Below are positions 12,577 through 62,584 of a stretch of DNA of 64,000 nucleotides, piece by piece. The position numbers were made by a program, and so were the translations under genes. The first letter of the stretch is position 1, and every line of letters starts with the position of its first letter. This stretch comes from Deltaproteobacteria bacterium HGW-Deltaproteobacteria-2 (GTDB lineage Bacteria > Desulfobacterota > Syntrophia > Syntrophales > Smithellaceae): the NCBI GenBank assembly GCA_002840505.1, contig PHBC01000003.1:426899-490898 (forward strand), written 5' to 3'. Under the pieces are notes generated by a model, which was not told where the DNA came from, did no database searches, and was given only the letters and a program-made list of their open reading frames with translations.

Positions 12577-12727
12577 ATACCATCTCAATTCAAAGGATAA
12601 CGACGCAGCCGACAAAGTTAACCAAATACCGGGAGCGTATCCCGTAAGGGGAGCGCATAATAAAGAAGGTTTTTACCTTGCCGGTAATTACCACCTGCAA
12701 GGTGGGAACTTACAAGCGAATTGGTAT
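12577..12727 (+). repeat. Interspersed element copy 1 (long subtype)
   Basis: Bounded by ATACCATCTCAATT and GCGAATTGGTAT, imperfect terminal inverted repeats. Inside are TTCAAAGGATAACG, GACAAAGTTAACC, GGGAGCGTATCCCG and GGTAATTACCACCTGCAAGG. The same modules in the same order occur in reverse orientation at 51773-52023. It lies between the NMO gene promoter region and ccdA; its right end abuts the ccdA leader, so it may contribute transcription signals. The adjacent 12253-12576 is AT-rich with a direct repeat (TTGATATAGATAATA twice at about 12470-12500) and no gene. Confidence 0.8.
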
Positions 12728-25744: not shown

Positions 25745-26068
25745 ATGAAATCTTACATTCAAATATCTACAACAACCGAAACCAAAGAACAGGCACAAAA
25801 AATTGCCCGATATTTAGTCGAACAAAAACTGGCCGCATGCGTGCAGATCTCCGGCCCCATTGAAAGTATTTATCACTGGAAGGGAAAAATGGAAACCTCC
25901 AGAGAGTGGCTTTTACTGATTAAAACACGGGAAGACTTATTTAAAAAAATTAAATCCTCCATCAAAAAACTGCACTCTTACGAAACACCGGAAATCATCG
26001 CCGTGCCGATTATTAAAGGGAGCAAGGAATATCTGAACTGGCTTGATGACGAGCTATCCCATTCCTAA
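25745..26068 (+). CDS. cutA: Divalent-cation tolerance protein CutA
   Basis: 107 residues, trimeric ferredoxin-like fold. Signature elements: LVEQKLAACVQISGPIESIYHWKGK and SYETPEIIAVPIIKGSKEYLNWLDDEL. Normal length for CutA1. The stop codon TAA (26066-26068) lies within the terminal inverted repeat of the interspersed element at 26058-26200. Confidence 0.95.
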   Translation: MKSYIQISTTTETKEQAQKIARYLVEQKLAACVQISGPIESIYHWKGKMETSREWLLLIKTREDLFKKIKSSIKKLHSYETPEIIAVPIIKGSKEYLNWLDDELSHS

Positions 26069-26200
26069 ATCAAAGCGCTATTTTTGTTGGCATAGCCTGC
26101 CCCGGCACAGGCTGGGATTGTTGGCTTCCTCAACGTATTTATAATACGCCTCTTTGCCTCCAGCTAGCATCCTCGATATCATCCTTGATTTAGGAATAGG
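26058..26200 (-). repeat. Interspersed element copy (CTAAATCAAAG-ended subtype)
   Basis: Ends CCATTCCTAAATCAAAG and CTTGATTTAGGAATAGG are near-perfect inverted repeats of about 17 bases. Internal GAGGCGTATTATAAATACGT (minus strand) plus GTTGAGGAAGCC and GCCTGTGCCGGGGCAGGC. The same order is found at 54067-54191 in the opposite orientation. The element overlaps the last 11 bases of cutA and leaves 8 bases before the end of the FMN reductase gene. Confidence 0.85.
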
Positions 26201-26208
26201 ATTCGGTA

Positions 26209-27319: not shown

Positions 27320-27482
27320 TCTGTGCCTGTTTGTGCATGAAAGTCTAACTAAACCGTTGTTTATAATATATTATCTTCCTGTATTTATTTTATAATATTT
27401 TTTTCATAAATGAAATTTGAAATATTTTTCAAGAAAAGTTTTAAAAACCTTTTAAATATGTTAATACACTTCCCATATTCTT

Positions 27483-27625
27483 ATACCATTTCGATTTCAA
27501 AGGATAACGAGGCGGCGAGGAGGAGGCTCCGCAGACGTATATATCGATACGTTGAGGATACCGACCCCGGCCTGCGCCGGGACAGGCTAAGCCAATAAAG
27601 TTAGCCGAAAAAATAGGAATGGTAC
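27483..27625 (+). repeat. Interspersed element copy (GGATAACG subtype)
   Basis: ATACCATTTCGATTTCAAAGG at the left end, GGAATGGTAC at the right. Contains GGATAACGAGGCGGCGAGG, AGGAGGCTCCGCAGACGTAT, ATACGTTGAGGATACCGAC, a GCGCCGG hairpin and AATAAAGTTAGCC. The same modules occur at 32807-32930 in the opposite orientation. It sits directly in front of the transketolase gene (22 bases). The stretch 27320-27482 is AT-rich without a gene. Confidence 0.85.
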
Positions 27626-27646
27626 AAATATTTTTAAGGAGACTAT

Positions 27647-29704
27647 ATGTCCGATAAAAACGAATTGGAAAATAAATGCATTGATACTATACGTTTTCTG
27701 GCTGCTGACGCGATTGAAAAAGCCAAATCCGGCCATCCCGGCATGCCGATGGGAGCTGCCGCCGCTGCTTTTACCTTATGGACAAGACATTTGAAACACA
27801 ATCCCAAGAATCCTCAGTGGCCTGATCGCGATCGCTTTGTTCTTTCCGCCGGTCATGCATCAATGCTTTTATACGCCCTTTTGCATCTCACCGGTTATGA
27901 TCTTACTCTTGACGATATTAAAAATTTCCGTCAATGGGGAAGCCGTACACCGGGTCATCCCGAATACAAGCATGCTCCCGGTGTGGAAGTAACCACAGGG
28001 CCCTTGGGACAGGGTTTGGCCAACGCCGTAGGCATGGCTATTGCCGAGACGCATCTGGCGGCACGCTTCAACCGCGAAGATGAAAAATTGGTTGATCATT
28101 TTACTTATGTCATGGCTAGTGACGGCGATATAATGGAAGGTGTTGCCGCTGAGGCCTGTGCTCTGGCCGGTCACCTGCGCTTGGGAAAACTTATCGTTCT
28201 TTATGACGACAACAAGGTAACTCTTGCCGGCGCAGCTTCTCTTTCCTCTACGGAAAATACCGAACAGCGTTTTAAAGCTTACGGCTGGCAGGTGCAGAAA
28301 GTTGCCGATGGAAACGATGTTGCCGCTATTGACCGAGCCATCAAAAAAGCCAAACGTGAAATTGAAAAACCTTCATTAATTTGTGTTCAATCGACAATAG
28401 GTTTCGGCGCACCCTGCAAACAGGGGAAATGTGACGCACACGGTTCTCCGCTGGGAGCCGATGAACTGCAAAAAACAAAAGAAGCTCTATGCTGGACTAC
28501 GGATTCGACTTTTTATGTTCCCGAAGATGTTCAGAAATATTTCCGCAAGGCTATTTCACGCGGTAAAAAATGCGAGAAGCAATGGCAGGACACTTTAAAT
28601 ACTTACCGGCAAAAAGAAACTGCTCTTGCCGCGGAATTTGAACGATCAACAAAAGGCGACCTGCCGGATAATTGGGAATCGACATTAAGCGAATTCCCCA
28701 ACGGATCAAAAGACGTGGCGACACGCAAGGCAGGAGAAATTGTAATGCAGGCCATCGCCTCAAAAGTACCCGAACTTATGGGCGGCTCGGCTGACCTTAA
28801 CCCTTCTACTTTTACCTGGCTTAAAGGAATGGGCGACTTTCAAAGTCCTCTACTTCCCAAAGAAGGTTTGCACGGCATGGTGGGAGGTTCGTGGGATTAT
28901 ACAGGTCGCAACATTCATTTCGGGATAAGAGAACACGCAATGGGATCGATTACCGTAGGCATGGCTTTACATGGCGGCCTTATTCCCTATACGGCCACTT
29001 TTTTGACCTTTGCCGATTACATGCGCCCACCTATGCGCCTGGCCGCGCTGATGGGCTTGCGCGCTATTTTTGTATTCACGCATGATAGCATCGGCTTGGG
29101 AGAAGACGGCCCCACGCATCAGCCGGTGGAACAAATTATGAATTTGCGTCAAGTGCCGAATATGACCGTTATCCGTCCGGCCGATGCCAATGAAACTTTA
29201 GAGGCTTGGAAAATTGCTATATCTAACACCAGCGGCCCGACAACGCTAATCTTCAGCCGTCAAAATCTACCGGTGCTTGATCGAAGTGTCTGCGGTGCCG
29301 CATCAGGTGTGAGACGCGGCGGTTATATTCTGTGGGAATCGGCGCCTAATCCCGAATTGATTTTAATATCTACCGGTTCGGAAGTTTCCTTAACGCTAAC
29401 GGCTGCCCGTAAACTCACTGAAAATGGAACAAAGGTAAGAGTTGTCTCGCTCCCCAGCTGGGAAATATTCGATCGTCAAACGCAAGAATATCGTGACAGC
29501 GTTTTGCCGCCGGCGATAACTTCTCGGATTGCCGTGGAGACCGGAATCAAGCTGGGATGGGAACATTACGTGGGGCTGCAAGGTATGATCATCGGCATGG
29601 AAACATTCGGCGCCAGTGCTCCGGGACCGGTGCTCTATGAAAAATTCGGTTTCACTGTTGAAAAAATTGTGGCAGCAGCAAAAGAATTGTTCCTTCGCGT
29701 CTAA
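27647..29704 (+). CDS. tkt: Transketolase
   Basis: 685 residues. Thiamine-diphosphate motif in [21 protein letters not shown] through YDDNKVTL (GDG...N), N-terminal [34 protein letters not shown], and the C-terminal pyrimidine domain with [31 protein letters not shown]. Transfers two-carbon units in the non-oxidative pentose phosphate pathway. Immediately followed by a Pgi gene (14-base gap). Confidence 0.96.
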
Positions 29705-32806: not shown

Positions 32807-32930
32807 ATACCAATTTGCTTTCTTTGGCTAACTTTGTTGGCTGCGTCTGTCGGCTTCCTCGACGTATTAGTAATACGCCTGCGGAGCCTCCTCCTTGCCG
32901 CCGCGTTATCCTTTGAAAGCAAAATGGCAT
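32807..32930 (-). repeat. Interspersed element copy (GGATAACG subtype)
   Basis: Ends ATACCAATTTGCTTTC and GAAAGCAAAATGGCAT are near-perfect inverted repeats (14 of 16). On the minus strand: GGATAACGCGGCGGCAAGG, GGAGGAGGCTCCGCAGGCG, GTATTACTAATAC, GTCGAGGAAGCCGACAGACG, CAACAAAGTTAGCC. Same order as the element at 27483-27625. Confidence 0.85.
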
Positions 32931-51772: not shown

Positions 51773-52023
51773 ATGCCAATTCGCTTGTAATTACCACCTT
51801 GCAGGCGGTAATTACCGGTAAGGTAATATTTGTTAATTATGCGCTCCCCTTACGGGATGCGCTTCCGGTCTTTGGCTAACTTTGTTGGTCCCGATGTATC
51901 GGGATCGTCGGCTCGTTATCCTTTGACCGAACGCGCAACCAAAGGGCGCGCAATAGAAATAAAACTTATTACCCTACCGGGAAGTGACGCCGAACAGGCG
52001 GCCATTTCCAATCGAAATGGCAT
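51773..52023 (-). repeat. Interspersed element copy (long subtype)
   Basis: Ends ATGCCAATTCG and CGAAATGGCAT are inverted repeats. Read on the minus strand it has GGATAACGAGCCGACG, an ATCCCGATACATCGGGA hairpin, CCAACAAAGTTAGCC, CCGGAAGCGCATCCCGTAAG and GGTAATTACCGCCTGCAAGG; this is the module order of the element at 12577-12727, about 65-80% similar by eye, plus an insert next to the right end. Fills most of the gap between pabB and the peroxiredoxin. Confidence 0.8.
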
Positions 52024-54066: not shown

Positions 54067-54191
54067 ATACCATTTCTAAATCAAAGATGATATTGAGGCT
54101 GCCAGGAGAAGGCGACGAGGCGTATTGTACATAGGTTGAGAAAGCCGACGACGACGCCAACAAAAATAGCGCTTTGATTTAGAATTGGTAT
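54067..54191 (+). repeat. Interspersed element copy (best-preserved)
   Basis: ATACCATTTCTAAATCAAAG and CTTTGATTTAGAATTGGTAT are 20-base terminal inverted repeats with one mismatch. Internal GAAGGCGACGAGGCGTATTG, ACATAGGTTGAGAAAGCCG and CCAACAAAAATAGCG. Reverse-orientation relative at 26058-26200. Lies 36 bases above the aldehyde dehydrogenase start; the remaining 54192-54355 is AT-rich without gene. Confidence 0.9.
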
Positions 54192-62454: not shown

Positions 62455-62584
62455 ATATCGATTTGCAGTCAAAAGTATACCGCGGCGGCAAGGAAGAGGC
62501 GACGTATGCGTATTATTTATACGTTGAGGAGCCGGTGACGCAGCCAACAAAGGTAGACGAATGAATGCAAATTGATATCGGTAT
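62455..62584 (+). repeat. Interspersed element copy overlapping the next gene's start
   Basis: ATATCGATTTGCA at the left and TGCAAATTGATATCGGTAT at the right are inverted repeats of 12-13 bases. Internal CGCGGCGGCAAGGAAGAGGC, GTATTATTTATACGTTGAGG, GACGCAGCCAACAAAGGTAG match the other copies. Its right end includes the start codon of the gene at 62565. Confidence 0.8.

Follow-up and report, generated by a model that had tools for sequence, protein, structure and literature searches.

A probable miniature transposon of Smithella-like Syntrophales that is also a conserved folded element

Seven intergenic intervals of the window (the whole 64-kb stretch of DNA analysed here) carry a repeated sequence that an earlier note took to be either a MITE or a structured element, which raises the question of which description is correct. 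Our analysis indicates that both hold: the sequence behaves as a MITE and, at the same time, as a folded element under conservation. On the evidence of its ends and of the target-site duplication (TSD) beside them, we consider it a non-autonomous DNA transposon (MITE) with a probability of about 0.85.

We found one repeat family in all seven intervals, as copies or remnants, and the view that they belong to a single modular family in either orientation was borne out. The copy at 54067–54191 (plus strand, 125 bp) is full length, has arms of type A (..CTAAATCAAAG../..CTTTGATTTAG..) and, as claimed, matches at 19 of 20 terminal bases; the other window copies match at 6 to 18 of 20 in an ungapped comparison. 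Full-length copies are also found at 32807–32930 (minus strand, 124 bp), with arms of type B (..CAAAGGATAACG../..GTTAGCC..), and at 62455–62578 (plus strand), with diverged arms (ATATCGATTTGCAGTC../..GAATGCAAATTGATAT). A type A copy of 147 bp at 26056–26202 (minus strand) has a hairpin insert in its core, and the copy at 27483–27624 (plus strand), upstream of the transketolase gene at 27647–29704, has a CCCCGGCCTGCGCCGGG hairpin in the 3' half of its core and is absent from the same site in the genomes G003 and G004. In the gap upstream of transketolase (~27440–27640), at least 6 of 12 relatives carry other small hairpin repeats, as judged by eye, which resembles a hot spot. The remaining copies, at 12577–12727 (plus strand, 151 bp; missed by the core covariance model described below) and at 51773–52023 (minus strand, 251 bp; 23 bits with that model), owe their odd lengths to the loss of most of the core and to the presence of a second repeat, which is nested in one arm (the right) of the former and in both arms of the latter. 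The core GGCGTAT..ATACGTTGAGG attributed to the family is present, with small changes, in five of the seven copies, and is mostly gone from these two. Similarly, the ATACCAATT type of inverted end exists, but as one among several tip variants (ATACC, ATTCC, ATGCC). Matching flanking triplets (TAA/TAA) are intact only at the 12577 copy; the 54067 copy has TAA on its right and no TNA on its left. Inverted repeats of 12 bp are hardly more frequent in the window than in shuffled sequence (4, as compared with 0–4 in 20 shuffles), so the evidence for the family is its repetition and not palindromy alone.

The nested second family consists of two hairpins joined by CCGGTAAGGTAAA-like sequence and ending in CCCGG, found at recurring places in the arms. 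With limits read from the sequence, it occupies 12629–12712 (plus strand) of the 12577 copy, within the right arm, and 51787–51868 (plus strand) and 51927–52009 (minus strand) in the two arms of the 51773 copy. One of its hairpins is listed 11 times, with 8 instances in right arms of type-B copies and 2 in left arms of type-A copies; another is listed 6 times, always immediately before TCAAAGG, or a close variant of it, in the left arm. The nearest relative, G001, shows an empty left-arm site for this second family, without target duplication (L053 as compared with L253), and the repeat at 51927–52009 occupies the same kind of site as in that clean insertion.

We measured the abundance of the element with a covariance model of its core (R1; 86 positions), built on 60 of 133 collected copies. 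At E ≤ 0.01, the genome (3.28 Mb) has 75 places that match the model, a few at the bottom of the ranking being weak, and BLAST with the 54067 and 32807 copies gave at least 48 and at least 42 matches, respectively, in the same genome (40 candidates scored for each), confirming repetition above chance. Arm types A and B both occur on one common core. Within the genus, 16 of 17 genomes have core-model matches, with 0 to 103 per genome (E ≤ 1e-4). In a sample of the phylum, with scoring limited to 15 candidates in each genome, 37 of 297 genomes match (E ≤ 1e-6); they represent 28 of the 198 genera and 17 numbered families. When named genomes were scanned with a pattern, at least 120 stretches were returned, nearly all from Syntrophales, Smithella or deltaproteobacterial MAGs; the matches listed also include Desulfobulbaceae and five contigs from MAGs that bear the names of other groups. 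The element-bearing relatives are Smithella-like Syntrophales, of which G001 is 93% identical across 3.8 kb.

No family in Rfam 15 matches the element, and low-score matches to other families are attributable to chance. One copy queried against each of a plasmid and a phage collection had no match, which disfavours a plasmid or phage source. A general role in coding was rejected because differences in apical loop length are not multiples of three. We found no description of the family in the open-access papers that our search covered. A sister family combines the same core motif with arms of the kind CTTCTCACC../..GGTGAGAAG; it occurs at L115, L141, L153 (Fermentibacteria MAG) and L395, that MAG being assigned to another phylum.

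The case for a transposon rests on the ends. The element is ~122 bp without inserts, lacks a transposase gene, and mostly ends in T[A/T/G]CC..GG[T/A/C]A, with TNA outside. We examined the flanks of 140 copies picked by tip motifs at both ends (ATACC, ATGCC, ATTCC, ATACT, ATATC and their complements), and found T at −2 in 120 and A at +2 in 113. The base between this T and A is the same on both flanks in 74 of the 140 copies, as compared with 40.6 expected, and is complementary in 26, as compared with 39.2 expected. Among the 97 copies with TNA on both flanks, the middle base agrees in 60. When this was broken down by tip form, using the 107 of 242 helices with the required TNA on both sides, agreement was 43/65 for TACC, 4/5 for TGCC and 13/18 for TTCC; aberrant tips had no TSD excess (5/19). 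In distant copies, TNA is present on both sides in 22 of 53, and the middle base agrees in 20 of those 22. The complete genome G302, some stretches of which were picked for known copies, has 10 places (one of them listed twice) with near-identical copies (≤5 substitutions), and the flanking triplets are identical at 8 of the 10: TTA, TAA and, once, TTT. Because the middle base varies among near-identical copies (TTA, TAA), the triplet is a direct 3-bp target duplication and not an inherited end. The earlier note had named target-site duplications as a check on its proposal, and would have been refuted by a few copies without boundary conservation; the repeats are instead found at 75 places genome-wide, with fixed, inverted ends. 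A trans-acting transposase whose cuts at (Y)TNA(R) are staggered by 3 bp would move the element and thereby duplicate TNA.

We also searched for that enzyme, and the transposase gene with matching ends that the earlier note had proposed to look for did not appear in the loci searched. No insertion sequence with the element's ends was detected in ~2 Mb of loci, 32 transposase loci and 780 kb of G302; long IS-like pairs of element ends in the loci read are chance-like only. The IS5 family, the IS1031 group and PIF/Harbinger elements duplicate TNA or TWA and have G-rich ends. The 3-bp TNA duplication is a shared trait; however, the T[A/T/G]CC tips are not G-rich, and the Pfam domains tested are rare in, or missing from, several carriers. 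DUF4096 was found in 2 of 17 genus genomes, only one of them above the cut-off, and is absent from the element's own genome; since carriers mostly lack it, an IS1031-type mobiliser is disfavoured. DDE_Tnp_1 was found in 14 of 17 genus genomes, with one weak match in the own genome and none in the carriers G003, G007 and G016, and DDE_Tnp_4 in 3 of 16 carriers. The lack of these two domains in several carriers disfavours IS4/IS5-type and Harbinger-type mobilisers. Y1_Tnp has no match in the own genome (E ≤ 0.001), which disfavours mobilisation by RAYT or other Y1 enzymes.

We next consider the fold. For the copies tried, folding as RNA was better in both strands than in any of 200 shuffles, and the effect was greater for the G-rich strand; folding as DNA gave a weaker effect, with one strand of L033 equalled by 10 of 200 shuffles. 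We kept 134 of 177 copies (those with both anchors and without a long core insert or repeats of the same core), and for covariation 79 of 86 type-B copies, the other 7 having an arm replaced by another repeat. Across these 79 copies, 92.9% of the cells of a 34-pair rod are paired, as compared with 86.0% in shuffles, and 158 cells are changed on both sides, as compared with 49.0 ± 5.0 in shuffles (none of 500 as high) and at most 61 when slid; related copies are not independent, so cell counts of this kind overstate the number of events. For the phylum-wide core, with 20 inner pairs in 45 sequences (43 from outside the own family), 95.9% of cells are paired, a percentage that is favoured by a structure drawn from the same alignment; the excess of double changes is safer (85, as compared with 18.9 ± 4.3 in shuffles and at most 21 when slid). 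The compensatory change that had been suggested as a check is therefore present in both sets, far above the shuffled and slid controls.

As the covariation shows, the element can form one long rod, in which paired arms lead to two short GGC/GCC helices lying between internal loops rich in purines, and the tip is an apical GCGTAY/RTACGT hairpin. Core helices of only 1–3 bp covary across families, and these purine loops are retained phylum-wide. AAA opposite AA(G/A) mismatches are kept in most copies, with A.A in 57 of 67 in-register type-B copies. In L052, L057, L146, L172 and L180, arms have been wholly replaced and yet still pair. A bias of G-U over A-C would point to RNA; G-U exceeds A-C in the outer arms (64 vs 19), the GGC helices (12 vs 7) and the apical helix (74 vs 3, mostly one fixed G-U pair), but the bias in helix 2 is opposite (6 vs 11), and the test did not decide which strand folds. 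The element's apical GAGGCGTAT..ATACGTTGAG motif recurs in another repeat family, which has TTTTTCAACAG-type ends and GCGCAACAAAGCAG; copies of that family are at L063:3963–4106 (minus strand), L166:2506–2610 and L345.

The genomic setting of the copies was determined with a crude ORF caller, using gaps of >100 bp from the same loci as background. Among 63 copies in the own genome, 33 are in tandem, 24 in convergent and 6 in divergent gaps (background 83, 37 and 25), and among 107 copies elsewhere, 64, 27 and 16 (background 221, 52 and 85). Orientation relative to transcription in tandem gaps is near random (17 same and 16 opposite in the own genome; 27 and 37 in others), and 7 cores in the own genome and 13 in others lie inside a called ORF. 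To the resolution of the gene caller, insertion or survival is thus mostly away from promoters and near gene 3' ends, in either orientation. T accounts for only 24 to 41% at each base from +3 to +12 beside the right arm, so there is no T-run.

Comparison with related genomes revealed turnover. In G001, 7 of 22 copies are at a site of an own-genome copy by inspection of BLAST flanks, and 6 by a stricter script. At sites shared with G003, for which the stretches compared held 42 of 52 model-listed copies, 6 of 7 pairs show greater similarity in the element than in its flank; with G001 this is true of only 4 of 6. L008 and L303, a pair that was left unaligned, occupy one shared site in opposite orientations, and conversion-like swaps of an arm or the core are seen at the orthologous sites L004/L310, L039/L286 and L057/L280. 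The reversal, the swaps and the mixed flank comparison together indicate that copies are turned over, converted and partly conserved; gene conversion could likewise make copies look conserved. A clean empty site was sought among close relatives and not found, because the intergenic DNA beside the copies has itself been replaced. L238:2218–2373 and L339 differ in that only one of them has an element; across it, identity falls from 97.5% to 85%, resembling a recombination junction. In L065, L099, L132 and L142, the left arm is swapped for a GTTAGTTGAACT..-type repeat joined to the core, a further modular exchange.

Some of these observations could be read as the mark of a cis-acting regulatory RNA or a terminator, multiplied by selection and not mobile: covariation is strong, copies lie near gene 3' ends, and in 6 of 7 pairs with G003 the element has changed more slowly than its flanks. 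We think this very improbable, given the near-random orientation, the lack of a T-run beside the right arm, the TNA duplications, the near-identical copies at unrelated sites in G302, and a copy number that ranges from 0 to 103 inside one genus. Slightly less probable still is a palindrome of the REP/BIME kind, which a Y1 transposase (RAYT/TIRYT) would mobilise in the form of single-stranded DNA. The hairpin form and the location at gene 3' ends recall such repeats, but the own genome lacks Y1_Tnp at E ≤ 0.001, and a direct 3-bp TSD is present, which Y1 enzymes are not known to produce. The element is also much longer (~122 bp with TACC-type ends) than a REP, a 20–40 bp hairpin tagged GTAG or CGTC. 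REP/BIME and the long-TIR repeat families described around RAYT/TIRYT genes (PMC3733652) are nonetheless abundant intergenic bacterial hairpins, as is the element.

A more serious alternative concerns the fold and not the mobility. The fold may be functionless, with template switching during replication copying one arm onto the other (quasi-palindrome correction), such that a plain MITE drifts and yet stays palindromic. Template switching would account for whole outer arms that were replaced and remain complementary in single copies (L057, L172, L180 and L146), for the conversion-like swaps at the three orthologous sites, and for the near-random orientation, and the mechanism has been published for RNA hairpins (PMC8794818). 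By contrast, indiscriminate correction should close the AAA vs AA(G/A) mismatches and the purine loops, which persist, and the core helices that covary across families are only 1–3 bp long. We therefore regard this explanation as possible but clearly the less probable one, and somewhat favour selection for a folded transcript element over template-switch correction alone. After insertion, the copies keep their pairing while the letters change; what is selected may be a self-contained transcript hairpin, working in either orientation and tolerated in UTRs and riboswitch loops. Template-switch repair between the arms possibly helps to keep the pairing.

We also identified copies inside cobalamin riboswitches, in two distant genomes, and inside a protein. 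In L431 (G217), a full-length match to the cobalamin riboswitch (88.8 bits) has the element inserted between model positions 58 and 59, exactly at a riboswitch hairpin loop. This riboswitch is the first of two in tandem before a TonB-dependent receptor gene. The ORF called for that gene begins within the other riboswitch, which makes a later true start probable. G168 likewise has a tandem pair of riboswitches, with genes for a TonB receptor, a periplasmic binding protein, FecCD and ABC components downstream, and the elements L435 and L388 are at the first of the pair. Rfam aligned this element-bearing riboswitch only around L388 (33.8 bits); by our reading of the flanking sequence, L435 probably sits in the same loop as L431. 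The cobalamin riboswitch match at L380 is weaker (22.9 bits) and under the Rfam cut-off. From the copies inside riboswitches, we infer that some copies of the element are transcribed. At L429 (G217:C29:164332–164717), a copy of the element forms, in frame, part of a 48-residue extension at the N-terminus of an RNase J-like protein. The fragment has 92 residues, of which those from 49 onwards match RNase J1, and some of the residues before that point come from the element. Scores for L429 are far under full-length cut-offs because the sequence is a fragment.

Bacterial MITEs are usually defined by sequence, and we know of no such conservation of structure in ordinary ones. The element resembles ERIC, RUP, Correia/NEMIS and QMITE, as reviewed in PMC10969869, in being short, non-coding and intergenic, with inverted ends, direct repeats, stem-loop transcripts and, sometimes, a place at gene 3' ends. 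It is unlike them in the copy-specific compensatory changes of its arms and its phylum-conserved multi-helix core, and no insertion sequence with its ends was found in the loci searched. Palindromic, multicopy intergenic sequences have also been described in Geobacter bemidjiensis, one family of which occurs inside genes as well (PMC2996986); the likeness is one of description only.

What sets this element apart is that it has the ends and the target-site duplication of a transposon and yet changes in its arms and core as a structured RNA would, in 17 families of the phylum sample. This makes it a testable question whether selection or template-switch repair is the keeper of hairpins scattered through genomes. 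The copies in riboswitches before B12-uptake-like genes, together with the copy in the RNase J-like protein, show a route by which such elements can be absorbed into regulatory RNA and protein. More tentatively, the element may represent a class that is inherited as a folded shape: a transposable rod of RNA or single-stranded DNA, found phylum-wide, whose fold would be kept by selection in either orientation and tolerated in riboswitch loops, and which an undescribed transposase would recognise by its fold more than by its letters.
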